Source of the DNA: an uncultured Hyphomicrobiales bacterium
GTDB lineage: Bacteria > Pseudomonadota > Alphaproteobacteria > Rhizobiales > Beijerinckiaceae
DNA: 32,206 nucleotides
Reading direction: 5' to 3'
Assembly (NCBI GenBank): GCA_903884435.1
Contig: CAISEY010000419.1
Coordinates: forward strand, 1-32,206
In this document: positions 10,044 to 32,206 of the stretch, in pieces
How positions within the stretch are numbered: position 1 is the stretch's first letter
Layout of the letters: each line of letters starts with the position of its first letter
Notes under the pieces: model-generated
Databases searched by the model: none
What the model saw: only the letters and a program-made list of their open reading frames with translations
Told to the model about the DNA's origin: nothing
Made by a program: the position numbers and the translations under genes

Positions 10044-11000
10044 TCACTTGGCGTAATATTTCAGAAACTCGTCCATCTGCTCCTTCGTGAAGGGAGCGTT
10101 GATGAATTTCAGCGAGAGCGCGTCGGCCATGGCGTTTTCGAGGCCGGAGATGCGTTTCGTCGCGAGATTGTTCTTCGGGAAATAATCGTCGCGGATCAAC
10201 TTCGCCTGCGCTTCGCTGATCCCCGCGAATTCGGCGTAGGTCTTCAGCGCGGCCGGGTCGGAATACATCCATTCCAGCGTTTCGTCGTAGGCGGCGAGGA
10301 AGCGCTTCATCTGGTCGGCCTTCTTCGTCAGCACGTCGATATGCGCGAAGTTCATCCGCACCGTCTGGTTGCGGAAAGCCTCGAGGTCGCTTTCCTTCGC
10401 GATGACCCGCACGCGGCCCGCCTTCACGTCCTCGACGACATAGGGCGGCGCCGACCAGCCGATGTCGAGCTGCCCTGACATGACCTGCGTGAAGGTCGCG
10501 GGGGCCGCGCCCGCCGCCACGGCCTTGATGTCGACGCCGGCCTGGCGGATCAGCGCGAGCGCGCCCAGGTTCGACGACGAGCCATTGGACGAATAGGCCA
10601 TCGTCTTGCCGGCGGCGTCCTTCAGCGTCTTGATCGGCGAATTGGCCGGCACGTACCAGAAAATATCGTCCGCGCCGGTCATCGAACTCGAGAAGGGGCG
10701 GATCGGCGCGCCCTTGGAGAAGGCGGCCATGATGCCGCTCGTGCCCGTGGCGAGACCCATGTCGAGACTGCCGGCGATCACGCCCTGCGTCGTCTCGCCG
10801 GCGCCGGCGGTGTAGAGCATCTCGAGCTTCAGGCCGTGTTTGGCGAAAATGCCGGCCTTCTGGCCGAGGTCCGGCGTCGATGTGTCCCAGTTGCCGCGCT
10901 GGGGCACGCCAAGTTTCAACACGTCCTCGGCGGTCGCGGGCGCGACGGCGAACGCAAGAGCGATCAGCGCGGCGGCGAGACGGACGGGCTTCACGGGCAT
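10044..11000 (-). CDS. ABC transporter substrate-binding protein, NMT1/SsuA-like (paralogue 1)
   Basis: The ATG at 11000, preceded by AGGAGG, gives 318 residues with a Sec signal peptide cleaved near PATA-EDV. The mature protein is a type II periplasmic binding fold of the NMT1/TauA/SsuA group, with the motif SMTGADDIFWYV near residue 111 and a conserved tail FTKEQMDEFLKYYAK. The tail and middle motif are shared with the proteins at 18263-19216 and 19695-20639, so the three are close paralogues. No permease or ATPase gene is adjacent. Likely ligands in this setting are aromatic or organic acids, which is inference. The gene is alone, convergent with the ThDP enzyme. Confidence 0.83.
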   Translation of the reverse strand: MPVKPVRLAAALIALAFAVAPATAEDVLKLGVPQRGNWDTSTPDLGQKAGIFAKHGLKLEMLYTAGAGETTQGVIAGSLDMGLATGTSGIMAAFSKGAPIRPFSSSMTGADDIFWYVPANSPIKTLKDAAGKTMAYSSNGSSSNLGALALIRQAGVDIKAVAAGAAPATFTQVMSGQLDIGWSAPPYVVEDVKAGRVRVIAKESDLEAFRNQTVRMNFAHIDVLTKKADQMKRFLAAYDETLEWMYSDPAALKTYAEFAGISEAQAKLIRDDYFPKNNLATKRISGLENAMADALSLKFINAPFTKEQMDEFLKYYAK

Positions 11001-11226
11001 GGCGATCCTCCTGGGTTCGCGGCTTTTAAACCCTGTTCGCGTCCGGCGTTCAAGGGCTGGCGCCAGCGATCTTCCCCGCGCCCGGCCGCCCCAGTGCGTC
11101 GGGAACCCGCGATCCGGACGAAGCCGCGGGCAAGGCCGGCTTGCAAAAACGGGCTTCCTGACACAAAAATACCGCGCTGGAGGCGCCGCGCGTCTGGACG
11201 CCCGCCTCTCTCGACGGGAGGAAATC

Positions 11227-12282
11227 ATGGCGAAATCCGCGAGTCCGGCCTCTCGCCCGGCGAGTCCGTCGGGCGGCCCCGGAGCTTCGAAGCCCGGCGT
11301 CGCCAAGCCGGCGGTCATCCGGCACGGATCGCCCCCGCGGTCGCCTGTCGCCGGCGAGACCTTGCAGGCCCGCGAAAAGGAAGAACTCGAACGGGCCGAG
11401 CGATACGCGCATTACGCGGACATGCTGCACAAGACCGCGGAGAAAACCGAAACGTTCTTCAAGGCGGCGGAACATTCGCGGGCCATCGACGCCGCCTTCA
11501 AACACGTCAAGACGGTTGGACAGATGGCCTACGACGTCCGGCGGGTGAAACGGGGCATTGTCAAACTCAACCGCGTGGCGACCGAGGGCGGCCGCGCCGG
11601 GGAGCGGGCGCGCGCCAGTTTGCAGAAAAGCCTCAAGGCGGCCCACGATCTCGAAATGCAATTCGCCCGGGAGCGCGCGTTGAGCGGCGCGTCGCTGAAG
11701 GTCATTCAGGAATACAAGGCGCTCCTGCGCACGGGCATGGTTGGCGCGGCGAAGGCGCGCATGGCCGAATTCGCGAAGCGTCTCGAAGCGACGCTGGAGA
11801 AAAGCACGGTCGGGCAAAATCTCGTCAAGAAGGGCAAGGTGTTCGCGAATCCCCATGTCGTCCGAGGGCTTTTCATCGTGAAATGGAGCATGTCCGCCTG
11901 GGAAAGCGTTGAGTCCAGCTATGTCCATTCAAACATGGACACGACCGCCGGAAAGGTAGTCAACACGGCGCTGGATATTGGCGGCAAGGTGCTCGTCGAC
12001 AGAAACCCCGTCGTCGGGTTCGTCGATGAATCCATTCTGCCGAAGGGTTACAAGCTCTCGGAAATATACCATGGCGGCGCTTCGGCCGTCACCGCGATCG
12101 GCGAAGGGCTGCTCAGGAACGACAGCCGCGCGATGGACCGGTTTCACGAGAAATCGATGCATGGCGCTTACGGAAAAATCCTGCAAGCCTCGAGCGAGGC
12201 CGGTGTTTTCTGGGCGGAAAAAGGCGTCGTCGGCGGCATGGACGAGTTCGTCGATTCCGTGCGCTGGTGGGTGAGCCACTGA
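11227..12282 (+). CDS. Unrecognised protein, 351 residues, disordered N-terminus and helical body
   Basis: The ATG at 11227 follows GGGAGGAAATC. I do not recognise a family. Residues 1-45 are rich in Ala, Ser, Pro and Gly and look disordered. Residues about 47-210 are charged and strongly helical (EKEELERAERYAHYADML, AKARMAEFAKRLEATLEK). A more hydrophobic part follows from about 220 (LFIVKWSMSAWESV) to the end, with Gly-rich stretches such as TALDIGGKVLVDRNPVVGF. There is no signal peptide and no clear membrane helix. The layout, a flexible leader plus long helices and a compact C-terminal domain, occurs in secreted effectors and toxins, but nothing here proves that. It stands alone between metabolic and glycan genes. 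Confidence 0.75.
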   Translation: MAKSASPASRPASPSGGPGASKPGVAKPAVIRHGSPPRSPVAGETLQAREKEELERAERYAHYADMLHKTAEKTETFFKAAEHSRAIDAAFKHVKTVGQMAYDVRRVKRGIVKLNRVATEGGRAGERARASLQKSLKAAHDLEMQFARERALSGASLKVIQEYKALLRTGMVGAAKARMAEFAKRLEATLEKSTVGQNLVKKGKVFANPHVVRGLFIVKWSMSAWESVESSYVHSNMDTTAGKVVNTALDIGGKVLVDRNPVVGFVDESILPKGYKLSEIYHGGASAVTAIGEGLLRNDSRAMDRFHEKSMHGAYGKILQASSEAGVFWAEKGVVGGMDEFVDSVRWWVSH

Positions 12283-16468: not shown

Positions 16469-17515
16469 TTATTTCGCGCCGCGTTCGTAAATGGTTTTCA
16501 GCCTTTCGACCACCGGCGCCGGCGTGGCGAAGGCCTCTCCGATCAGGCGGGCGACGCGCTCCGCCGGGATCGGCCGCACGCTCATCTCGCGGGCGGCGGC
16601 CTCCTTCAGGAAGTCCGGATCGGCGAACGTGTCCATGAAGGCCTGACGCAACGCCGCGACGCGCTCGGGCGGAACGCCCGGGCCGACCATGTAGGGAAAC
16701 GTCATTTTCGAGGAGGCCGTGCCGAGCGCCAGCAGGGCGAGGTCGTCGTCGTTTCGCGCGAATTCGCGAGCGGCCGGAACGTCGGGCAGGGCGGCGAGCC
16801 GCGTTTCGCCCGATTGCGCGAGGACGCGGATGTCGCCGGCCTCGACGAGACGTTTGTAGCTGTGCCTCAACGTGTCGAGGGGCATGGTCGCGTAGCCCTC
16901 CGCCTCGCCGCGCTCGATGGCGAGCATCACCGCCGGCAAGCCGGTGTAGCCGATCACCGCGCGCATCTTCGTTTTGAACACTTCGTTATAGAGCCCGATG
17001 GTCACGGTGGGCGTCGAGCCTGGTGCGAGCGCGCCGATGGGCGTCTCCCGCGCGCGCATGTCTTCCACGCGTCGCACGGGCGACGAGCGCCAAACGAACA
17101 GCGTGTGCGGCGAATCCGCGGGCGTTGGCAGCCACTGGAATTTCAGCGAATCGTATTTGACGCCCGCGGCGTTGAGCAACGGTTGCAAAGGCACGTTGGA
17201 AGAGGGCGCGCCGATCAGCGTCCCGTCCTGGGCGGCGACGTTGAAAACGTGGTTCGCCTGCAACAGGGAGCTGGCGCCGGGCATGTTTTGCACGACGATG
17301 TTTGGCAGGCCCGGGACATGCTTGCCGAGGTGCGCTCCGACGAGCCGCGCGTAAAGATCGAAACTGCCGCCTGGCGGCAGTCCGACGATGATCGTGATCG
17401 TCTTTCCCCGATAGAAATCCGCGACGGCGTTCTGCGCGCGGGCGGGGACGCCGCCCGCGATTGTCGCGAGGATGGCGAGCGCCGTGATCGCCGTCGACGC
17501 GCGAGATTCGTGCAT
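16469..17515 (-). CDS. Bug/TctC family tripartite tricarboxylate transporter binding protein
   Basis: The ATG at 17515 gives 348 residues with a signal peptide ending near GVPARA-QNA. The mature start is classic for the family: YRGKTITIIVGLPPGGSFD. Later parts fit too: GASSLLQANHVFN and IGYTGLPAVMLAIERGEAEG, the latter in place of the usual mapping-on-domain-2 motif. Bug proteins capture carboxylates or aromatic acids in the periplasm and deliver them to TctAB permeases. No tctA or tctB is present. The aldolase-family gene follows after 16 bases. The mature length is slightly above usual. An open frame extends upstream to 17785 but overlaps the divergent VOC gene and is not coding. Confidence 0.84.
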   Translation of the reverse strand: MHESRASTAITALAILATIAGGVPARAQNAVADFYRGKTITIIVGLPPGGSFDLYARLVGAHLGKHVPGLPNIVVQNMPGASSLLQANHVFNVAAQDGTLIGAPSSNVPLQPLLNAAGVKYDSLKFQWLPTPADSPHTLFVWRSSPVRRVEDMRARETPIGALAPGSTPTVTIGLYNEVFKTKMRAVIGYTGLPAVMLAIERGEAEGYATMPLDTLRHSYKRLVEAGDIRVLAQSGETRLAALPDVPAAREFARNDDDLALLALGTASSKMTFPYMVGPGVPPERVAALRQAFMDTFADPDFLKEAAAREMSVRPIPAERVARLIGEAFATPAPVVERLKTIYERGAK

Positions 17516-17573
17516 CCGTTGATTTCCCGTCCCTGTCGATCGCCATTCTGCATGAAATCGCCAGTGCGCAAAG

Positions 17574-17585
17574 CCGTTGCAACGG
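17574..17585. promoter_or_regulatory. Perfect 12-bp palindrome in a divergent promoter region
   Basis: CCGTTGCAACGG is fully self-complementary and lies between the divergent Bug gene (start 17515) and VOC gene (start 17632). The position suits a shared operator for a dimeric regulator. A single 12-bp palindrome in GC-rich DNA may also be chance. Confidence 0.25.
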
Positions 17586-17631
17586 GCCAGCCGCGCGCGA
17601 TACCTTGCCCCGTCCGTCACCGGAGGCGCCA

Positions 17632-18237
17632 ATGGCCACGCAAGCAATCCGCCGCGAGACTCTCGTCCGTTCCCGAACGCGCGGCGTGCATCACCTCGCG
17701 CTTTGCACGGACGACATGAAGGCGACGACGGAATTTTACGTGCGCGTGCTCGGCATGCCCCTCGTCCACGCCATGCGCGTGCCAAAGGGGCTTGGCGTGG
17801 GGCCGGATAACCGCGGCAATCCGCCCTACGAGGAATTGCGCCACTATTTCTTCGACATGGGCAACGACAGCCTGCTCGCCTTCTTCGAAATTCCGGAGGG
17901 AAGCGAACCGCGTGGCAACCGCAACGCCATCGGCGCCATGCAGCATTGCGCCTTCGTCGTCACGCCGGACAAATTCCGGGCCATCGAGGCCTCGCTGAAA
18001 CGCGAGGGCCTGCCTTACCTCGGGCCGGTGCGGCAATTGCCGGGCATGGACGGAATCTACGTGATCGACCCCAATGGAATCCGCCTTGAATTCGCCTGCC
18101 AGCCGGACGACGGCGAGGAGCCCGGGGTCGTCGAATGCGTGACCCAGACGAAGGAGGAGGCCGCGAGCGAATTGCGCGGCCTGCCGGGCGTCGACGAGGC
18201 CTGGTTGCGGGAGATGACAGCGGCGCTTCCTGGGTAA
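17632..18237 (+). CDS. VOC superfamily (glyoxalase/extradiol dioxygenase-like) protein
   Basis: The ATG at 17632 follows GGAGGCGCCA and gives 201 residues. The paired beta-alpha-beta-beta-beta modules of the vicinal oxygen chelate fold are visible: RGVHHLALCTDDMKATTEFY near 26-45, then YFFDMGNDSLLAFFE, then MQHCAFVVTPDKFRAIEASL and IYVIDPNGIRLEFAC. Candidate metal ligands are H30 in the first module, His103 in MQHCAF, and the Glu of RLEFAC. Such small proteins include glyoxalases, isomerases, fosfomycin-type resistance enzymes and minor dioxygenases. With aromatic-catabolism genes around, a lyase or dioxygenase role is plausible, but substrate is unknown. Confidence 0.8.
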   Translation: MATQAIRRETLVRSRTRGVHHLALCTDDMKATTEFYVRVLGMPLVHAMRVPKGLGVGPDNRGNPPYEELRHYFFDMGNDSLLAFFEIPEGSEPRGNRNAIGAMQHCAFVVTPDKFRAIEASLKREGLPYLGPVRQLPGMDGIYVIDPNGIRLEFACQPDDGEEPGVVECVTQTKEEAASELRGLPGVDEAWLREMTAALPG

Positions 18238-18262: not shown

Positions 18263-19216
18263 CTATTTCGCGTAATATTTCAGCAAGTCCGCCATCTGGT
18301 CCTTCGTCAGCGGTTGCGCGAGGAACTTGAGTTCGATCGCGTCCTTCATGGCGTTGTCGATGTCGGAGACGCGATTGAGTCGCAAATTGTCCTTCGGGAA
18401 ATAATTGTCGCGGATGGCGCGCGCCATGTCCGTGCTCGTCTGCGTGAACTGGCCATAGGCCACGAGCGCCGCGTCCCCCGCGTACATCCATTCCACGGCT
18501 TCGGCGTAGGCGGCGCGGAACCGGTCGAGCACGGCGGCCTTCTTCGTGATGAAGTCGAGATTGCCGATGTTCATGCGCACCGTCTGGTTGCGGAACTCCG
18601 GCACGTCGCTCTCGCGCGCGATGATGCGGATTTCGCCGGACTGCACCTTGTCCACGGCGACGGGCGGCGAGGACCAGCCGATGTCGATCTGGCCCGAAAG
18701 GGCTTGCGTCAGCGTGCCGGGAGGCCCGCCGGTCGGCGTCAGCTTCATTTGCACGCCAAAATACCGCTGGAAACCGAGCACTGCGAGATGGGTCGAAGAC
18801 CCGTTGGTCGAATAGGCGATCGTCTTGCCGGCGGCCTCTTTCAGGGACTTGAGCGGCGAGGCCGCCGGCACGTACCAGAAGAGATCGTCGGCGCCCGTCA
18901 TGGAATTCGAGATCGGGCGGATCGGCGCCCCCCGGGCGAAGGCCGACATGACGCCCGTCGTGCCCGCCGCGCTGCCGAGATCGACGCTGCCGCCGATCAC
19001 CGCCTGGATCGTCTCGCCGGAGCCCTGCGTCCACAGCACCTCGAGATCGACGCCGTGTTTCGCGAAAATTCCCGCTTTCACGGCGGTGTCGAACATCGAC
19101 GTGTCCCAGGCGAAACGCTGGCCAACGGCGATTTTCACCTTGTCGGCCTGCTGGGCGAGGGCGGGCGAGGCCGCCGCGAGAAGCGCGGCGGCGATGGCGG
19201 AGCGACGCGTGATCAT
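18263..19216 (-). CDS. ABC transporter substrate-binding protein, NMT1/SsuA-like (paralogue 2)
   Basis: The ATG at 19216 has GGGGACAAC upstream and gives 317 residues. The N-terminus MITRRSAIAAALLAAASPAL is a signal peptide with a double-Arg start (TRRS), possibly Tat-like but without the full motif. Shared motifs with the other paralogues are TQGSGETIQAVIGGSVDLGS, SMTGADDLFWYV and the tail LTKDQMADLLKYYAK. It should bind an organic or aromatic anion in the periplasm. No membrane component is near. It is convergent with the VOC gene 25 bases away. Its closest relative here is the next binding protein at 19695, with a small secreted protein gene between them, which suggests tandem duplication. 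Confidence 0.83.
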   Translation of the reverse strand: MITRRSAIAAALLAAASPALAQQADKVKIAVGQRFAWDTSMFDTAVKAGIFAKHGVDLEVLWTQGSGETIQAVIGGSVDLGSAAGTTGVMSAFARGAPIRPISNSMTGADDLFWYVPAASPLKSLKEAAGKTIAYSTNGSSTHLAVLGFQRYFGVQMKLTPTGGPPGTLTQALSGQIDIGWSSPPVAVDKVQSGEIRIIARESDVPEFRNQTVRMNIGNLDFITKKAAVLDRFRAAYAEAVEWMYAGDAALVAYGQFTQTSTDMARAIRDNYFPKDNLRLNRVSDIDNAMKDAIELKFLAQPLTKDQMADLLKYYAK

Positions 19217-19292
19217 GGTTGTCCCCATGTGATGACTGGCGCTCGCCTTTTGCGTCAATTCGGGCGCCGCGTAAACTCGCGGGGCGGCGGCC

Positions 19293-19619
19293 TCAGTTTC
19301 CGCAAATCCGTCCGGCGGATTCCTCGAGACGCGCCCGCGACGCCTCCATCTGGTCGAGAACGCGCTCTCCCATGCCGCAATGACCGGGGTCGTCGCGCAA
19401 AATCCGGATGATCTCCGCGCCATCGACGAGTTCCCGGGCGTAGAGTTCACAAAGCCTTGGCGTGTCGCTGGCGGGCGTGCGTTTGCGCTCGGCGCCCGCC
19501 TTGCGGATCTCTTCGTTCATTTTCGGCGTATGCGCGCATTCCGCGCCGGGCGGGGCTGCTCGCGTGATCGCTGGAAGAAGACAGGCGGAAAAAAGAGCGG
19601 CGAGAAACATTCGAGGCAT
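19293..19619 (-). CDS. Small secreted four-cysteine protein, unrecognised
   Basis: This 108-residue protein has an N-terminal signal peptide (FLAALFSACLLPAITRA) and a charged mature part with cysteines at 28, 57, 81 and 106, enough for two disulfides. C13 lies inside the signal region; the preceding FSA is a poor lipobox, so a lipoprotein is unlikely. Residues 54-75 (RLCELYARELVDGAEIIRIL) and 84-104 look helical, suggesting a small helical bundle. I know no family for it. It sits between two paralogous binding-protein genes on the same strand, 76 bases from each side, so it may be a periplasmic accessory to them or simply trapped in the duplication. Confidence 0.62.
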   Translation of the reverse strand: MPRMFLAALFSACLLPAITRAAPPGAECAHTPKMNEEIRKAGAERKRTPASDTPRLCELYARELVDGAEIIRILRDDPGHCGMGERVLDQMEASRARLEESAGRICGN

Positions 19620-24525: not shown

Positions 24526-25500
24526 TCAATCGATCTGGATCGCGAGCTTCCGGATCTCGGCGCTCCACTTGTCCTGTTCTTTTTGCACGAAAGCCTCGAA
24601 CTCCGCGAGTTCCATTCGCGAGGGCTCGAGCCCGGCGCCCTTGAAGACCTGCAGAATGTCGGGCGTGGCGAGCGCCTTGTTGATCTCCCTGTTCAGCAGC
24701 GCGACGATATCCCCGGGCGTTCCCGCCGGCGCGACGATGCAGAACCAGGTCGTCGACGTGAGGTCCGGATAGCCCTGTTCCGTCAGCGTCGGGACATCCG
24801 GCAGGATGGGCGAACGCCTGGGCCCGGTTGTCGCGGCGGCGCCGATCTTGCCCGCTTTCACGAATTCGGCGGCGGCCGGAATGGCGAGCAGGCCAAGCTG
24901 GATTTGCTCCCCGATGAGCGCGTTGACGATGGGCACGTCGCCGCCATAGGGCGCGTGCGCGGCCTCGAAGCCAAACTTGCGTTTCAACATTTCGCCGAGA
25001 ATGTGGCCCGACGATCCCACGCCGTTCGACGAATAGTTCATCTTGCCCGGATTGGCCTTCGCCCAGGCGGCGAGGCCGGCGACGTCCTTGCCCCCGAGCG
25101 AGGGCGGCGTGCCCATCAGAAGCGGCAATTCCGTCAGCATGGCGACGGGCGCGATGTCCTTGCGCGGGTCGTAGAGCGGCGCCTTCGACATGGCGGGGTT
25201 GAGCGCCATCGTGGACAGCGAGCCCATGCCGATCGTGTAGCCGTCCGGCCGCGCGTGGGTGAGCGCCGACGTGCCGACGCTGCCGGCGACGCCGGCGCGG
25301 TTCTCCACGATGACGGTTTGCCCGAGGCTTTCGGAAATCTTCTGCCCCACCGACCGCGACAGCAGATCCGCCGCCCCGCCGGGCGGGAACGGCACGACGA
25401 TCTTGATGGTCTGTTGCGGCCATGTCTGCGCCGCCGCTGGCGCCAGCGGGCTGGCGGAGAGCGCCACGAACGCGCAAAGCGAGACGAAAATGTTTCGCAT
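24526..25500 (-). CDS. Bug/TctC family tripartite tricarboxylate transporter binding protein
   Basis: The ATG at 25500 with GGGAGGAAACAG upstream gives 324 residues, the usual length. The signal peptide ends near LAPAAA-QTW and is followed by the family start IKIVVPFPPGGAADLLSR. Further hallmarks are VENRAGVAGSVGTSAL near 73-88, NYSSNGVGSSGHILGEMLK, and HAPYGGDVPIVNALIGEQIQ, the YKG-type ligand loop. It captures an organic acid in the periplasm; no TctA or TctB membrane gene is present. It is more canonical than the Bug protein at 16469. Its promoter region is shared with the divergent propeller gene at 25661. The unknown 193-residue gene follows after 40 bases. Confidence 0.87.
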   Translation of the reverse strand: MRNIFVSLCAFVALSASPLAPAAAQTWPQQTIKIVVPFPPGGAADLLSRSVGQKISESLGQTVIVENRAGVAGSVGTSALTHARPDGYTIGMGSLSTMALNPAMSKAPLYDPRKDIAPVAMLTELPLLMGTPPSLGGKDVAGLAAWAKANPGKMNYSSNGVGSSGHILGEMLKRKFGFEAAHAPYGGDVPIVNALIGEQIQLGLLAIPAAAEFVKAGKIGAAATTGPRRSPILPDVPTLTEQGYPDLTSTTWFCIVAPAGTPGDIVALLNREINKALATPDILQVFKGAGLEPSRMELAEFEAFVQKEQDKWSAEIRKLAIQID

Positions 25501-25660
25501 CTGTTTCCTCCCGCGGCGGCGCTGTTTCGCGCCGGCCGGCGGAGGATGAAAGCACCGCGCGCGCCGTTCGTCCAGAGCGATCGACGCTTTGCGGGCGCCC
25601 GCGTTTCGGTGTAGTTCGAAGGCCGGGGCGGCGGGACGCTGGCGCCAACGGGAGGGAAAA

Positions 25661-27256
25661 ATGCGAATTTCGGTCAGGTTGCTTGCTTCCGCCGCGCTCG
25701 GGGTGTGTCTGTCCGCGCCCGCCTTCGCCGCGACGGTGACGGGAACCGTGACCGGGCCCGATGGCAAGCCCGTCATGGCCGTTTTCGTCGTCGCGCAGGA
25801 CGCCACGACCCGCAAGACCGTCAATGTCCTTTCGGGCGAGGACGGGCGTTATTACATCGGCGACCTGCCGGCGGCGTCCTACAACATCTCGATCAAGGCC
25901 GCCGGCCTGCGGGCCGACGCGCGCCGCGACGTGACGCTGACGCGGGACCAGAAGGCGTCCTTCGATTTCGCCGCCCAAAAGCGCCCGGTGCAGTGGAGCG
26001 AACTCTCGACCTTCCAGGGCCGCAAGCTGCTGCCGAAAACGCCGGAGCACGACCTGAGCCACCAGGACCCGTTTTTCGGCGCCTGTTTCCAGTCCTGCCA
26101 TTCCTTCCAGAATCGCATGGCCAATGGCACGCGCGATCTCGACGGCTGGCGCGATCGCGTCAAATACATGAACGACACGATGATGGCGGGCGAGGGCCGC
26201 CGCACCACCGAGAAAGAGGCCGAGGACTTCGCGCGCTATCTGACGCTGATGTTCGGGCCGGATTCGCCCAAGCCCGAGTCGCCCGAGCAGATGCCCGAAT
26301 ACAAGTCGCTCGTGCGGCCGTTCAGCCCGAAGGCGATGAACATCGCCTACGTGGAGTTCGACATGCCCGCGCCCGGCGGCATGGGCCCCTGGAGCGCCAT
26401 GGAAGACCGCGACGGCAAAATGTGGATTCCCTACTACGGGAAGGGAAACGAGGTCATTCGCCTCGATCCCGACACGGCGCGAATGGATCACTTCAAGCTG
26501 CCGTTCTCGCGCACCGCGGGCATTCACTCGGTCATTCCCGCGGCGGACGGCAAGGTCTGGTTCGTCGAAACGTCGATGGGCAAGATCGCCCAACTCGATC
26601 CGGCGACGAAGGAGATCAACGAATACCAGAGCCCGCCCTTGCCAGACGGCCGCAAGCCCGGAGCGCACACCATCCGCGTCGACGAGCGCGGCCTCGTGTG
26701 GACGAGCGGCGGCCCGGTCATCACCATGTTCGATCCGAAGACGAAGGACTTCCGCCACTACGACGTGCCCGGCACCTACGGCAACACCGTCGGCCACGAT
26801 GGCGACCAGTGGTTCACCTCGTTCCGCGCCGACGGCGTGATCGCCCGTATTTCGAAGGACGGCCAGCTCGCGAAATTCCAGCCGCCGACGAAGGGCAAGC
26901 CGCAACGTCTCGATCTCGATCCGGACGGCAACGTCTGGTTCAGCGAGCGCCAGGGCAACAAGATCGGCCGTTTCGATCCGAAAACGCAGACCTTCAGGGA
27001 ATTCCCGCTGCCGGGACCGGAAGCGAGCCCCTACGCCATCGGCGTCGATCGCGATCGCATGGTCTGGTACTCGTCGCACGAGCAGGACGTTCTTGGCCGG
27101 CTCGATCCGAAGACGGGCGAGGTGACGGAATATCCCTATCCGCATTCGGAAATGTCGATGCGCGAGTTCTACCTCGATAAGAAGGGCCGCATGTGGTACG
27201 CGAGCTCGGCCAACAACAAGATCGGCTACTGGTATTACAACGAGCCCCCGAAATAG
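25661..27256 (+). CDS. Secreted three-part protein: carboxypeptidase-regulatory domain, cytochrome c-like segment, seven-bladed Vgb-like propeller
   Basis: The ATG at 25661 follows GGAGGG; the 531-residue product has a signal peptide to residue 23 (SAPAFA-ATV). Residues 25-105 are a carboxypeptidase regulatory-like beta-sandwich (VTGPDGKPVMAVFVVAQD, GRYYIGDLPAASYNI). Residues about 130-200 resemble a small cytochrome c with a variant haem site C142-FQS-C146-H147 (three residues between the cysteines, not two), candidate axial Met170/174/175 and a final helix (EAEDFARYLTLMFG). Residues about 230-531 hold seven repeats around W-F/Y (KMWIPYYGKG, KVWFVETSMG, LVWTSGG, QWFTSFRADG, NVWFSERQGN, MVWYSSHEQD, RMWYASSANN) as in virginiamycin B lyase-type propellers. 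It probably acts in the periplasm; lyase activity is not implied. It precedes the molybdenum-enzyme genes. Confidence 0.8.
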   Translation: MRISVRLLASAALGVCLSAPAFAATVTGTVTGPDGKPVMAVFVVAQDATTRKTVNVLSGEDGRYYIGDLPAASYNISIKAAGLRADARRDVTLTRDQKASFDFAAQKRPVQWSELSTFQGRKLLPKTPEHDLSHQDPFFGACFQSCHSFQNRMANGTRDLDGWRDRVKYMNDTMMAGEGRRTTEKEAEDFARYLTLMFGPDSPKPESPEQMPEYKSLVRPFSPKAMNIAYVEFDMPAPGGMGPWSAMEDRDGKMWIPYYGKGNEVIRLDPDTARMDHFKLPFSRTAGIHSVIPAADGKVWFVETSMGKIAQLDPATKEINEYQSPPLPDGRKPGAHTIRVDERGLVWTSGGPVITMFDPKTKDFRHYDVPGTYGNTVGHDGDQWFTSFRADGVIARISKDGQLAKFQPPTKGKPQRLDLDPDGNVWFSERQGNKIGRFDPKTQTFREFPLPGPEASPYAIGVDRDRMVWYSSHEQDVLGRLDPKTGEVTEYPYPHSEMSMREFYLDKKGRMWYASSANNKIGYWYYNEPPK

Positions 27257-27483: not shown

Positions 27484-30400
27484 ATGTCCATCGCTACCGG
27501 CAAGTTGAGAGTGATCCTGTGGGGGCTGGCGAAGGTCCTGCCGCTCGCCGCCGCCCGCTATCCCGAATTCGCCGCGCGGCTGAAGGAGCATGACCTCGTC
27601 GCCCGCATCATGGCGCGCGACGAGGAGATTGGCCGCTGGTTCGAACTGCGCGGCGGCAAGGTCGCGAGCGGAACCGACGCCGGCAAAAAGGCCGACATCA
27701 CCATCGCCTACAAGCACGCGGCGATCGCCGCCGACCTGCTGACGCCGCCCTTCAACTGGCTCAACCAGATCAACGCGCAAAAAGACTTCAAGATGACCGT
27801 AGATGGCCCCGAGGGCCTGTCGAACTGGTTCGCGCAGACGATCATGCAACTGATGAGCGTCAACCTCGACATGGGCGTGCCGCAGAAGGATGGCACCATC
27901 CGTTACTGCAACATGGCCAACGGCGGGCCGCTGTTCGTCTACGTGAAGGACGGCAAGATCGTCCGCACGACGCTGATCGACTTCGACGAGACCGATCCGC
28001 AACCCTGGACCATCGAGGCCAAGGGCGTGAAACTGACTCCGCCACGCAAGACGACGCTCGCGCCGCACGGGCAGAATTCCAAGGCCATCGTCTATTCGCC
28101 CGACCGCGCGCTCTATCCGATGAAGCGCGTCGATTTCGATCCGAACGGCGAGCGCAATCCGCAAAACCGCGGCAAGTCCGGCTATGTCCGCATTTCGTGG
28201 GACGAGGCGCTCGAACTCGTTTCCTCCGAGATCAAGCGCGCCAAGAGCAAATACGGTCCGGGCGTGATGGCCGTCTCGCACGGTTCGCATCACACCTGGG
28301 GCAACATCGGCTATTACCTCTCCGCGCTCTATCGTTTCCGCAACGCGGTCGGCCACACCGCCGTCCATCACAATCCCGATTCATGGGAAGGCTGGTACTG
28401 GGGCGCGGCGCATCACTGGGGTTACTCGCTGCGCGTGGGGCAATCGGAAACCTACGGCACGGTCGAGGATTGCCTGCAAAATTGCGACATGGTGGTGTTC
28501 TGGTCCGCCGACCCCGAAACGACGTCCGGCTCCTATGGCGCGCAGGAAGGCACGGTGCGCCGCCAGTGGCTGAAGGATCCCCGGCTGAAGTGCAAGATCG
28601 TCCACGTCGATCCCTTCTACAATTCCTCCGCGCAGTTCCTGCCGGGCAAATGGTTCGCGCCGAAGCCGACGACCTCCGTCGCGATGGCGATGGCGATCGC
28701 CTGCGTCTGGATCAGGGAAGGCCTTTACGACAAGGCCTATGTCGAATCCCACACGGTCGGCTTCGACAAGTGGAAGGCCTATCTTCTCGGCGACGAGGAC
28801 GGCGTGCCGAAGACGCCGGAATGGCAGGAGGCCGAGACCGGCGTGCCCGCGAAGGACGTGCGGGCGCTGGCGCGCGAATGGGGCGGCAAGCGCGTCTATC
28901 TCGCGCCGGGCGGCTGGGGCAACGGCCACGGCGGAGCCTGCCGCAACCAGACGGGCATCCAGTGGGCGCGCGTGATGGTGTGCCTCGTCGCCATGCAGGG
29001 CCTCGGCAAGCCGGGCGTCAACATGGGCAATCTGCAATGGGGCACGCCCGTCGATTTCAACTTCTATTTCCCGGGCTACGCGGAAGGCGGCATGTCCGGC
29101 GACATCGAGGGCACGTCGCTGCCGGTGGAGCTCTACCAGCGGATGCCGCAACTGCCGACGATGAACACGTCGAACCAGAAGATACCCCGCATCTTCATGC
29201 CCGAGGCCATCGTCGATGGAGAGGCGAAGGGCTTCCTGTGGAACGGCAAGTCGATCGAGCACCAGTTCGCGCCGGTGAACTATCCCGCCGCCGGCCACGC
29301 GCCGGTGAAGATGCTTTACAAGTACGGCGGCTCGATGATCGCGACGATGAACAACACCAATCGTCACGTGAAAATGTACCAGTCGGACGCGCTCGACTTC
29401 GTCGTCAACCAGTCCATCTGGATGGAGGGCGAGGCGAAGTTCGCGGACCTGATCCTGCCGGCCTGCACGAACTTCGAGCGCGTCGATATTTCCGAATGGG
29501 CGGCGCTCGGCGGCTATGGCCATCACGGCCAGCAGCAGCTCAACCACCGCGTCGTGATTTTCCAGGCGCCGGCGATCAAGCCGCTCGGCGAGTCGAAGTC
29601 CGACTACTGGATTTTCACGCAAATCTGCGCGCGCCTCGGCCTCGCCAATTACTTCAACGAGGGCATGAACGAGATCGACTGGGTCAAGCGCCAGTTCGAG
29701 GCTTCCGATCTTCCGCGATATATTTCGTGGAAGAAATTCGTGAAGAAGGGCTATTTCGTCGTTCCGACGGAGAAGGAAAAACTGCGCGCGCCCGTGTCCT
29801 TCCGCTGGTTCTGGGAGAATCGCAAGAAGGACGTGCCGGAGCCGCTGCCGCTGCCCTCCGACTACGCGAAGGAATATCTGTCCGGTCTGCAAACCCAGTC
29901 GGGCAAGCTCGAGTTCGAGTGCAATTCGCTCATTCGCGCCAACGATCCGGAGCGCCCGCCGATCGTGAAATACGAGCCGTCGTGGGAAGGCCAGCACTCC
30001 GGCGAGATGTTCAGGAAGCATCCCTTCATGATGGTGACGCCGCACTCGAAATATTCGTTCCACACCCAGGGAGACGGCAAGGATTCCTTCCTGCTCAACA
30101 TCGAGGATCATCGCATCAAGGTGGGCGACTGGTATTACTGGATCATGCGGATGAACCCGCAGGACGCCGCCGAGCGTGGCATCAAAAAGGGCGATCTCGT
30201 CAAGGTCTACAACGACCGCGGCGCCGTGCTCTGCGCGGCCATGCCGACCGAGCGCCTGCCGCGCGGCGTCTGCCATGGCTATGAATCCTGCGCGATCTAC
30301 GAGCCGATGGGAGAGCCCGGCAAGTCCATCGACCGCGGCGGGTGTCTCAATCTCCTGACGCCGCATCGCACGCAAACGAAGTCGACGCATTCGCTCGCCG

Positions 30401-30537
30401 GCGCCAACGCGCTGGTCGACATCGTGCCGTGGGACGGCAAGATCGAGCACATGTCGGAAACCTTCGCGATGATGGAGACCGCGGCGGCGGAGAAGGCGAG
30501 CGCCGCGCGCGCCGCCGTTCTGGAGCCCGCGAAATAA
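27484..30537 (+). CDS. Molybdopterin oxidoreductase large subunit, pyrogallol-phloroglucinol transhydroxylase/resorcinol hydroxylase family, with N-terminal SCP2-like domain
   Basis: This 1017-residue protein follows GAGGAGG. From residue about 140 it matches, as I recall it, AthL of Pelobacter acidigallici (875 residues): [66 protein letters not shown]. The presumed Mo ligand Ser300 is preceded by Asp299; His269 and Tyr678 match AthL His144 and Tyr560. AthL Arg153 and Cys557 correspond to Tyr278 and Leu675. As in AthL there is no N-terminal Fe-S motif or Tat signal, so it is cytoplasmic. Residues 1-130 are an added SCP2-like lipid-binding domain ([34 protein letters not shown]). The small subunit follows after 62 bases. 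The reaction, hydroxylation or transhydroxylation of a phenol, is inferred. Confidence 0.85.
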
Positions 30538-30599
30538 TCTGGACACGGAAATCGGCGTGAAGCCGCGGCGCCCGGCGCCGCGCCACGCGGGAGAAGACG

Positions 30600-31436
30600 A
30601 TGCAAAAGTGGAACATGATCATCGACGTGGCCGAGTGCACGAACTGCAATCTGTGCACGCTCGCCATTATGGACGAATACGTCGACAATGAATTTCCCGG
30701 CTACAGCGCGCCGATGCCGAAACACGGCCACAAGTGGATCGACATTCTGCAAAACGAGCGCGGGCAGGGCACCCAGCTCGACATCGCCTACGTTCCCGTC
30801 ATGTGCAACCATTGCGACGACGCGCCCTGCGTCAGGGCCGCGCGGGACGGCGCGGTGAAAAAGCGCGACGACGGCATTGTCATCATCGATCCCGTGAAGT
30901 CGAAGGGACAAAAGCAGATCGTCGAGAGCTGCCCCTATGGCCACGTCTGGTGGAACGAGCAATTGCAAATTCCGCAGGCGTGGAACTTCGACGCCCACCT
31001 TCTCGACAACGGCTGGACGCAGACGCGCGGCGGGCAGGTGTGCCCCACCGGCGCCATGAAGGCGATCAGGATCGACGACGCGGACATGCGCGACATGGCG
31101 AAGGTGGAGTCGCTTGAGCCAATGAAGCCGGAACTCGGCACGAAACCGCGCGTCTGGTATCGCAACCTCTGGCGCTATTCGACAGCCTTTGTCGCCGGAA
31201 GCGTGTCGCGCGAGGCCAATGGAATCGTTGATTGCGTCGAGGGGGCCGATGTTCGTCTCCTGCGCGACGGCAAGGTGGTCGCGACGGCGAAGACGGATAA
31301 CTATGGCGACTTCAAGTTCGACCGTCTCGCCGAAAACTCCGGCGCTTGCGTCGTCGAAATCGTCCATGGCGGGTCGAGGAAAAGCATCGACGTGACGGTT
31401 GGCAAGAGCGTCGGCCTCGGGGAGATCCGGCTATGA
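30600..31436 (+). CDS. Iron-sulfur small subunit of the transhydroxylase-type molybdenum enzyme, with reduced cluster set
   Basis: This 278-residue protein follows the AthS plan: ferredoxin-like N-terminal part and a C-terminal transthyretin-like beta domain from about 200 (GADVRLLRDGKVVATAKTD, YGDFKFDRL). PELGTKPRVWYRNLWRY at 177-193 is close to AthS as I recall it. Cluster cysteines present are C13, C16, C19, C69, C72, C77, C111 and C148, enough for two [4Fe-4S] clusters. The four that would build AthS's remaining cluster are replaced: Ile23, Trp128, Asp131 and about Gly144. C212 and C250 lie in the beta domain. The stop overlaps the next start as ATGA. It should pair with the large subunit in the cytoplasm. 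Confidence 0.85.
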   Translation: MQKWNMIIDVAECTNCNLCTLAIMDEYVDNEFPGYSAPMPKHGHKWIDILQNERGQGTQLDIAYVPVMCNHCDDAPCVRAARDGAVKKRDDGIVIIDPVKSKGQKQIVESCPYGHVWWNEQLQIPQAWNFDAHLLDNGWTQTRGGQVCPTGAMKAIRIDDADMRDMAKVESLEPMKPELGTKPRVWYRNLWRYSTAFVAGSVSREANGIVDCVEGADVRLLRDGKVVATAKTDNYGDFKFDRLAENSGACVVEIVHGGSRKSIDVTVGKSVGLGEIRL

Positions 31437-32206
31437 AAGGCCTGTTCGCGGCCACCATGGCGGGTGTCGCGTTTTCGCTGTTCGCCGCGCCGGCCATGGC
31501 GCAAACGAACAAGTGGAAACACGCCGTGCTCGAGCCCAAGAGCGACGCGGGCATCATCCTGATGGCGGCGCGGCGGGGCTTTTTCAAGAAGCTGGGCCTC
31601 GATGTCGAAATCGTCGAACTCAAGAACGAGATGCTGGCGCAACGCGCCGCGGTGGCGGGCGAACTCGATTCCTTCGAGGGTTCGCCGCCCTTCGCCGCCG
31701 CCGCCAGCGGTTCGACGCTGAAGGCCATCGGCTGCTACTGGACGGTGTTGCCCTATCATATTTTCGCCCGCGACACGGTGAAGACCATCGCCGACATGAA
31801 GGGCAAGACCATCGCGACCTCGGCCTCCGGCTCGGCGCCCGATCTCGTGGCGCGCGCCGTGCTCGACTTTCACCATGTGCCCGTCGCCAGCGTCACCTTC
31901 GCCAACGTCGGCAGCGACGCCGACCGCTATCGCGCCGTGATCCAGGGCGTCGTCGACGCGACCGTGGTGTCCGGCGAGTACACGCCCAATCTGGCGCGCG
32001 ACAAGCTGCATTCCATCGCCAGCGCCCGCGAGGCGATGCCGGAATACGACCGCCTGTGCATCACCGCGAACGACAATTCGCTGACGAAGAAGCGCGCCGA
32101 CGCCGTGCGTTTTCTCGCGGGCGAGATGAACGGCTTCGCCCACGCCCTGTCGCATCGCGACGAGACGATCGCGCTGACGAAGGAAATCACCGGACAAAAA
32201 CCGGAC
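31433..32206 (+). CDS. ABC transporter substrate-binding protein, NMT1/SsuA-like, divergent type (partial, C-terminus off the right edge)
   Basis: The ATG at 31433 overlaps the stop of the small-subunit gene (ATGA), implying translational coupling. The 258 visible residues start with a signal peptide ending near AAPAMA-QTN. The body is a type II binding fold: ILMAARRGFFKKLGLDVEIV near 41-60, MKGKTIATSASGSAPDLVAR and the lobe-2 region VIQGVVDATVVSGEY. It lacks the SMTGADD motif of the three paralogues at 10044, 18263 and 19695, so it belongs to another branch. Being coupled to the molybdenum enzyme, it likely captures the substrate of that pathway; ABC permease and ATPase genes may follow beyond the window. 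Confidence 0.83.
   Translation, partial: MKGLFAATMAGVAFSLFAAPAMAQTNKWKHAVLEPKSDAGIILMAARRGFFKKLGLDVEIVELKNEMLAQRAAVAGELDSFEGSPPFAAAASGSTLKAIGCYWTVLPYHIFARDTVKTIADMKGKTIATSASGSAPDLVARAVLDFHHVPVASVTFANVGSDADRYRAVIQGVVDATVVSGEYTPNLARDKLHSIASAREAMPEYDRLCITANDNSLTKKRADAVRFLAGEMNGFAHALSHRDETIALTKEITGQKPD

Follow-up and report, generated by a model that had tools for sequence, protein, structure and literature searches.

An AthLS-like molybdenum enzyme subfamily with a WxFD motif in place of ligands of a predicted [4Fe-4S] cluster

The AthS-like small subunit encoded in the window, by which we mean the whole stretch of 32,206 nucleotides analysed here, has replaced four of the twelve ligand cysteines of AthS, and these four correspond, as far as the sequence tells, to the ligand set of a single cluster, FS2. 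Alignments with relatives indicate that this loss is not private to the window protein and is common to a large family, which is named here after the WxFD motif that stands in place of a CxxC motif, and which apparently represents an undescribed subfamily of molybdenum enzymes.

Ligand cysteines of the small subunit

The small-subunit gene and its ligand positions, with cluster names transferred from relatives, are the following:

30600..31436, + strand: small subunit, AthS-like ferredoxin (ATG start, open reading frame of 278 aa; phmmer, Pfam, AF2 model)
30636..30656, + strand: Cys13-x2-Cys16-x2-Cys19, motif I, FS1 ligands (by the NarH table in the available part of PMC5338063)
30666..30668, + strand: Ile23 codon, fourth position of motif I, an FS2 ligand in 12-Cys relatives (alignments)
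30804..30830, + strand: Cys69, Cys72 and Cys77, motif II, FS3 ligands (each in 101/101 WxFD rows)
30930..30932, + strand: Cys111, motif III, fourth FS3 ligand (101/101 WxFD rows)
30981..30992, + strand: WNFD motif (Trp128-Asn-Phe130-Asp131) in place of the CxxC of motif IV (alignments)
31029..31031, + strand: Gly144 codon, third Cys position of motif IV, an FS2 ligand in 12-Cys relatives (alignments)
31041..31043, + strand: Cys148, motif IV, fourth FS1 ligand (101/101 WxFD rows)

AthS (PDB 4v4c_B) is the best solved relative of the small subunit, and the two proteins align end to end (phmmer, E 2e-66, residues 1-278 on 1-274). Pfam assigns PF13247 (4Fe-4S dicluster) with 67.2 bits against a cut-off of 26.2, and the AF2 model (pLDDT 96.3, 62 sequences in the alignment) superposes on 4v4c_B with TM values of 0.94/0.95 and an rmsd of 1.4 A. 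The C-terminal beta domain, which AthS also possesses, appears CarboxypepD_reg-like, PF13620 reaching 23.4 bits there, under its cut-off of 32.3. In phmmer and MAFFT alignments, AthS has Cys at all twelve positions, as the initial annotation had stated, whereas in the window protein four of them are occupied by Ile23, Trp128, Asp131 and Gly144, and the remaining eight ligand cysteines (13, 16, 19, 69, 72, 77, 111 and 148) align on the other eight of AthS.

The assignment of the four positions to one cluster follows from the motif order shared with the four-cluster ferredoxin subunits NarH and EbdB. In the NarH table of PMC5338063, as far as this source was available, FS1 is bound by C16, C19, C22 and C263, FS2 by C26, C244, C247 and C259, FS3 by C184, C187, C192 and C227, and FS4 by C196, C217 and C223. 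By motif order, window positions 23, 128, 131 and 144 equal NarH Cys26, Cys244, Cys247 and Cys259, and the lost four are therefore the FS2 set, an assignment that is made by homology and motif order and not by coordinates. The initial view that exactly one ligand set is missing while the eight other cysteines are kept is thereby corroborated. AthS itself is already without the FS4 set (window positions 81, 101, 104 and 107, with Cys in nine of nine 16-Cys rows), and, with the FS2 set replaced in addition, no more than two [4Fe-4S] clusters, FS1 and FS3, are predicted for the window protein. NarH and EbdB, by contrast, keep FS2 and the [3Fe-4S] cluster FS4, and their large subunits have an FS0, in the accessible descriptions (PMC8840923, PMC5338063, PMC8301774). 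The chance that four random losses among twelve cysteines hit one of three ligand sets is 3/495, a piece of arithmetic done after the fact.

A rescue of the set by shifted cysteines was looked for and rejected: the eight ligands together with Cys212 and Cys250 are all the cysteines of the protein, and the model places both spare ones in the C-terminal beta domain. Cys212 (codon 31233-31235) is invariant in the 101 WxFD rows and present in 14 of 17 12-Cys rows and one of nine 16-Cys rows. Misassembly or contamination of the window is unlikely, as homologues at 67-81% identity occur in six genomes of the same genus. The small-subunit gene (NG86) shows dN/dS values of 0.11, 0.19 and 0.19 against its relatives L002, L003 and L004, at dS of about 1, and is thus under purifying selection.

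The WxFD clade and the order of losses

The final small-subunit set, with duplicates removed, comprised 127 rows, namely 101 with WxFD, 17 with twelve ligand cysteines and nine with sixteen. A tree of these rows that excludes the trait columns unites the 101 WxFD rows in a single clade (SH-aLRT 99; 98 in a 122-row tree). Trp128, Phe130 and Asp131 are each present in 101/101 WxFD rows, Cys at 128 and 131 in 17/17 12-Cys and 9/9 16-Cys rows, and each of these two positions changed once on the 127-row tree. This single change and the support of the clade substantiate the suggestion of a distinct subfamily. His133 and Arg143 do not vary in any of the three groups of rows.

The other two FS2 positions behave differently. 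Of the 100 WxFD rows readable at position 23, 15 still have Cys there, and Cys144 persists in 36 of 101, while both cysteines are present in 17/17 12-Cys and 9/9 16-Cys rows. Neither is found in 52 WxFD rows (the window protein included), only Cys23 in 13 and only Cys144 in 33, and two rows, L118 and L168, have both. If losses are taken as irreversible, Cys23 was lost about 12 times and Cys144 about 10 times on the 127-row tree (Fitch counts 10 and 7) and 11 and 9 times on the 122-row tree (Fitch counts 9 and 6). The 127-row tree, on which these numbers depend, was calculated quickly and leaves 37 forks open, and the direction of change depends on rooting with the 16-Cys rows. As WxFD is fixed and positions 23 and 144 vary, the CxxC to WxFD change came first, after which the orphaned Cys23 and Cys144 were free to drift. 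The drift is seen only where 128 and 131 have changed (Cys in 26/26 other rows), and this is independent evidence that the four positions form one site. A strictly concerted four-way loss, as initially proposed, is ruled out by the intermediates with Cys23, Cys144 or both; the survey of homologues for the same four-way loss, which the initial annotation had advised, shows the change at 128 and 131 in 101 of 127 rows and the absence of both Cys23 and Cys144 in 52 of these.

At the eight FS1 and FS3 positions, a single event was found, C16S in five WxFD rows, and the seven other ligands are Cys in every readable row. The five rows with this change of an FS1 ligand (L063, L075, L084, L097 and L106) sit on one branch and are marine by title. 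The FS4 set was lost once, earlier and on one branch, in all 118 WxFD and 12-Cys rows, position 104 being gapped in one of them.

The rows stem from several searches. In the window's own family, 135 of 298 genomes had a match at E <= 1e-3, and ten places beside the window hold full AthS-like proteins with 47-81% identity (L002-L011), the next-best match having an E of 7e-12 and less than full length. The order search gave 4/397 genomes at E <= 1e-40, the window among them, and the phylum search around the window matched 1/398 genomes, which was the window itself. A scan of 84,980 species contributed the best 80 of 582 confirmed relatives, which came from at least 593 pattern matches; the ranking was done on L037, itself a WxFD protein, and 12-Cys forms are therefore under-sampled. 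From plasmids, six of the eight places with full-protein cover at >=40% identity were taken in (H1, H3-H6 and H8), with H2, H7 and the partial H10 outside the sample. Further sources were two genomes carrying 12-Cys forms, the phylum to which one of them belongs (9/297 genomes matched, including that genome) and the order of a betaproteobacterial locus (5/399 genomes at E <= 1e-40, two already in the set). Azoarcus was found neither among 40 of 333 plasmid records listed nor among the best 80 of 582 loci. Rows dropped as duplicates were L040 (identical to L037), L121 (the place of L100), L120 (the locus of L088) and L165 (identical to L086), and L162-L164 were the same loci as L099, L061 and L059; L127, a distant ferredoxin, and L012-L030, weak ferredoxin matches of the own-family search, were dropped as well. 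L119 is without its N-terminus and unreadable at position 23. In a first table of the window, AthS and 99 loci, Trp128 and Asp131 were present in 98/101 rows, the remaining three (AthS, L088 and L100) keeping all twelve cysteines. Genomes of the phylum of G1027 contain two 16-Cys AthLS-like pairs at a short distance from each other (L156, L157 and L159), and the betaproteobacterial genome with the 9-Cys locus L061 also holds a 16-Cys form, L167.

Large subunit, additional domain and gene neighbourhood

The large subunit and the other annotated genes of the window are:

27484..30537, + strand: large subunit, AthL-like, 1017 aa, predicted Mo-bis-MGD catalytic subunit (4v4c_A, Pfam)
27484..27870, + strand: N-terminal extension ahead of the AthL-like core, with an SCP2-like fold and without counterpart in AthL (AF2 model, Foldseek)
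25664-27256, + strand: CarboxypepD_reg and Vgb-lyase-like protein just upstream of the large subunit (Pfam)
10044-11318, 18263-19450 and 31433-32206: NMT1-type solute-binding proteins (Pfam)
16469-17785 and 24526-25824: TctC solute-binding proteins (Pfam)

Both subunits of the window pair align with the pyrogallol-phloroglucinol transhydroxylase AthLS/PgtLS of Pelobacter acidigallici (PDB 4v4c-4v4e). Residues 138-986 of the large subunit match AthL (4v4c_A) with an E of 9.3e-280, PF21423 (AthL-like domain 1) scores 84.7 bits against a cut-off of 27, and PF00384 (Molybdopterin) and PF01568 (Molydop_binding) are over their cut-offs. Pfam gave no match of PF04879 (Molybdop_Fe4S4, FS0) in the window protein or in six relatives scanned, and thus no FS0 cluster is predicted. 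AthL H144, D174, S175, W176, Y404 and Y560 are, on the list and numbering that we assume, the Mo ligand (Ser) and residues of the phenol pocket, and the window protein is identical to AthL at all of them in the alignment. The WxFD large subunits share these residues almost throughout (H144 76/76, D174 75/76, S175 76/76, W176 76/76, Y404 78/78, Y560 76/78), as do the 12-Cys large subunits (13/13 or 14/14, and 13/14 at 560). AthL Tyr152, presumably also near the active site, corresponds to His in 14/76 WxFD rows. Arg153 of AthL is Tyr in the window and in 72/76 WxFD rows, and varies in the 12-Cys rows. Kinship with catechol dehydroxylases, which are related to acetylene hydratase rather than to AthL in the available part of PMC7028382, was considered and rejected, since acetylene hydratase 2e7z_A gave an E of 9.2e-13 against the 9.3e-280 of AthL.

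A mixture-model tree of the large subunits, sampled with a hand-chosen 50 of 78 WxFD rows and 13 of 14 12-Cys rows (63 in all), places 49/50 WxFD partners in one clade (99). The exception is L112 from Reinekea marinisedimentorum, which has a WxFD small subunit and a large subunit that groups with the 12-Cys partners (98), a mismatch for which subunit gene exchange or a tree artefact are possible explanations. The AU test mildly rejects a single WxFD clade of large subunits (p 0.0203). In a first tree (98 rows, plain LG), WxFD needs three changes, with deep forks unsupported and a long-branch warning that includes L112.

Another difference from AthL is the extension of about 125 residues ahead of the AthL-like core. 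The core is preceded by at least 120 aa in 72/78 WxFD and five 12-Cys large subunits (L100, L145 and L147-L149), and the WxFD exceptions are L031, L062, L063, L066, L098 and L113, several of which are cut by contig ends. The extension is missing in AthL, L146, L150-L153, L155, L161 and the 16-Cys partners, and L154 is incomplete. Altogether 62 N-terminal stretches were aligned. By sequence, PF02036 (SCP2) had no match in the window protein, which thus stays below its gathering score, and matched 1/13 members scanned at E 0.0014, and a PDB sequence search with the extension returned nothing under E 0.5. The AF2 model of the domain (pLDDT 91.5) has its best Foldseek match in UbiJ-SCP2, a ubiquinone biosynthesis accessory protein (6h6p_A, E 1.2e-5, TM 0.62/0.69, 14% identity), and the 29 Foldseek matches at E <= 0.001 are all either SCP2 proteins or members of the alkylsulfatases and the related YjcS group, which we take to contain an SCP2-like part. 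For UbiJ, the available part of PMC9499169 proposes that the SCP2 domain binds ubiquinone intermediates by their polyisoprenoid tail. This SCP2-like fold, fused to a Mo subunit in the window, suggests that the substrate is possibly a lipophilic phenol.

The gene context looks like aromatic catabolism, as judged from annotated neighbours in 87 loci (the best 80 of 582, six plasmid loci and the window), many of them cut by contig ends, with ORFs of at least 120 aa counted and one member annotated per family. The families that recur are FAA hydrolase (16 loci), acyl-CoA synthetase (15), ABC ATPase (14), SDR (10), 3-hydroxyisobutyrate-type dehydrogenase (10), TctC (9, the window included), LysR (8), VOC/glyoxalase families (8, 6 and 5), aldehyde dehydrogenase (7) and OmpW (5). 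A second molybdopterin oxidoreductase lies near the AthLS-like pair in 8/87 loci (L040, L047, L059, L061, L069, L072, L080 and L086), and L061, the one member that was scanned, has an Fe4S4 domain. No cytochrome, NrfD or separate ferredoxin was found in the 20 annotated of 25 neighbour families present in at least four loci, a count from which redox partners shorter than 120 aa fall out. The window also holds an FAD_binding_3 protein, a class II aldolase, a TPP enzyme and several solute-binding proteins, and is partly syntenic with the same-genus genome G119 (L174); ABC, MFS and GMC genes are found within 489-32206 as well. The protein at 25664-27256 has one weak relative among the compared loci (L176, 25% identity) and, by eye, a signal-peptide-like start and a CFQSCH stretch (CX3CH) that may be an unusual haem site.

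Proposed function and its alternatives

We favour, with some reserve, the reading that the two genes at 27484-31436 code for a Mo-bis-MGD enzyme of the AthLS type, probably located in the cytoplasm, which belongs to a subfamily of redox-neutral phenol (trans)hydroxylases whose electron wire is cut. The sequences show that the FS2 ligand set was lost through a single CxxC to WxFD change at the base of the clade, followed by drift of the two leftover cysteines; Trp128, Phe130 and Asp131 would fill and pin the emptied site, and only FS1 and FS3 would assemble, their retained role being to stabilise the fold and the contact between the subunits. In ethylbenzene dehydrogenase, as described in the available part of PMC8840923, electrons pass from FS0 to FS4 in order, with distances of 6.6 A between FS1 and FS2 and 5.4 A between FS2 and FS3. 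In the window pair FS0 and FS4 are predicted to be missing, as they are in the 12-Cys line. Without FS2, the separation of FS1 and FS3 would be the sum of both gaps and the cluster body, which we estimate to be beyond fast tunnelling, and across so wide a gap the small subunit would not connect the Mo centre to the outside. It is sound to infer, as the initial annotation had done, that the path of electrons would not be that of AthS, and the loss suggests an enzyme that functions without electron transfer along this wire. A redox-neutral Mo reaction needs no wire, and for this reason the family may be read as phenol (trans)hydroxylases in which the small subunit, with its two clusters, plays a structural part. 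The chemistry at the Mo site would most likely be redox-neutral, hydroxyl abstraction and insertion cancelling each other as in pyrogallol-phloroglucinol transhydroxylase, and the substrate would be a phenol, in a setting of aromatic catabolism. The transhydroxylase is cited, in the part of PMC10420851 available, as the precedent for a catalytic cycle that abstracts and inserts an oxygen atom at the same time. Counting against this explanation are the AU test with the placement of L112, the His at the position of Tyr152 in some WxFD rows, the related Ser-ligated enzyme RhLS, which draws electrons from resorcinol, and the second Mo oxidoreductase, which is a possible redox partner in the eight loci where it occurs.

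The last two of these points also favour the strongest alternative, to which we give clearly less weight: a true redox hydroxylase that introduces a water-derived hydroxyl like resorcinol hydroxylase, its electrons leaving from FS1 or directly from the Mo site to a soluble acceptor, which would make FS2, FS3 and FS4 dispensable as a wire. Many Pseudomonadota respire, and most of the best 80 of 582 loci are titled Pseudomonadota. RhLS of Azoarcus anaerobius is placed, in the available part of PMC10100899, in the same Ser-coordinating group as PgtL and hydroxylates resorcinol, which is used as electron donor in respiration; the small subunit of RhLS may or may not carry WxFD. An acceptor protein of less than 120 aa would also lie outside our neighbour count. 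However, no dedicated acceptor gene recurs in the 20 annotated of 25 neighbour families, and an electron exit at FS1 would leave FS3 idle, although its ligands are kept in 101/101 WxFD rows.

We consider it improbable that the FS2 site still binds a cofactor, first a [3Fe-4S] or Asp-ligated cluster held by Cys23, Asp131 and Cys144, and later another metal or none. A precedent for such a site is FS4 of NarH, a [3Fe-4S] cluster with Trp in place of one Cys. In the available NarH table, this cluster is listed with three Cys (PMC5338063), and L118 and L168 indeed retain Cys23 and Cys144 beside Asp131, which is invariant in the WxFD rows together with His133 and Arg143, the latter two being invariant outside WxFD also. 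Yet neither Cys is present in 52/101 WxFD rows, the window protein among them, and one Cys only in 46 more, and position 23 accepts ten residue types besides Cys (first table), which is unlike a ligand. Degeneration of the small subunit, with the pattern as an accident of relaxed selection, is very hard to credit, for the drift of Cys23 and Cys144 and the C16S change in one subgroup stand against the low dN/dS, seven of eight other ligands that are Cys in all readable rows, the fixed W128, F130 and D131 and a full-length model of high pLDDT; random decay as a general account, which the initial annotation had dismissed, is rejected in view of the purifying selection and the invariant WxFD motif.

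Returning to the redox-neutral reading, a further-reaching and decidedly tentative proposal is that a widespread subfamily of Mo enzymes in Pseudomonadota shifts hydroxyls within or between lipophilic phenols without O2 or an electron wire. The SCP2-like domain, whose fold is shared with UbiJ and which is fused to the Mo catalytic subunit here, would present a lipid-phenol to the Ser-ligated Mo site, and the small subunit would be a structural scaffold with two clusters, in which WxFD has taken the place of FS2 as the last step of a series from four to three to two clusters.

To our knowledge, it is unsettled why a redox-neutral transhydroxylase carries iron-sulfur clusters. We found no description of an FS2 loss in AthS-like proteins in the titles and abstract beginnings of the open-licence literature, and an earlier notice elsewhere is possible; the loss is likewise not described in the available parts of PMC10100899, PMC7028382, PMC8840923, PMC5338063, PMC8301774, PMC12366328, PMC10420851, PMC10470551, PMC3971608 and PMC9499169. 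AthLS-like enzymes have been described from anaerobes, as far as the accessible parts of PMC10470551 and PMC3971608 go, and our survey extends their range, by record title among the best 80 of 582 loci, to many marine and soil Pseudomonadota. The lipid-binding-like domain hints at a new substrate class. The WxFD family is a natural experiment, in which relatives with 16, 12, 10, 9 and 8 ligand cysteines exist while the catalytic residues stay constant, and this series, in which the loss of the FS4 set preceded that of the FS2 set, makes the role of FS2 in catalysis directly testable.
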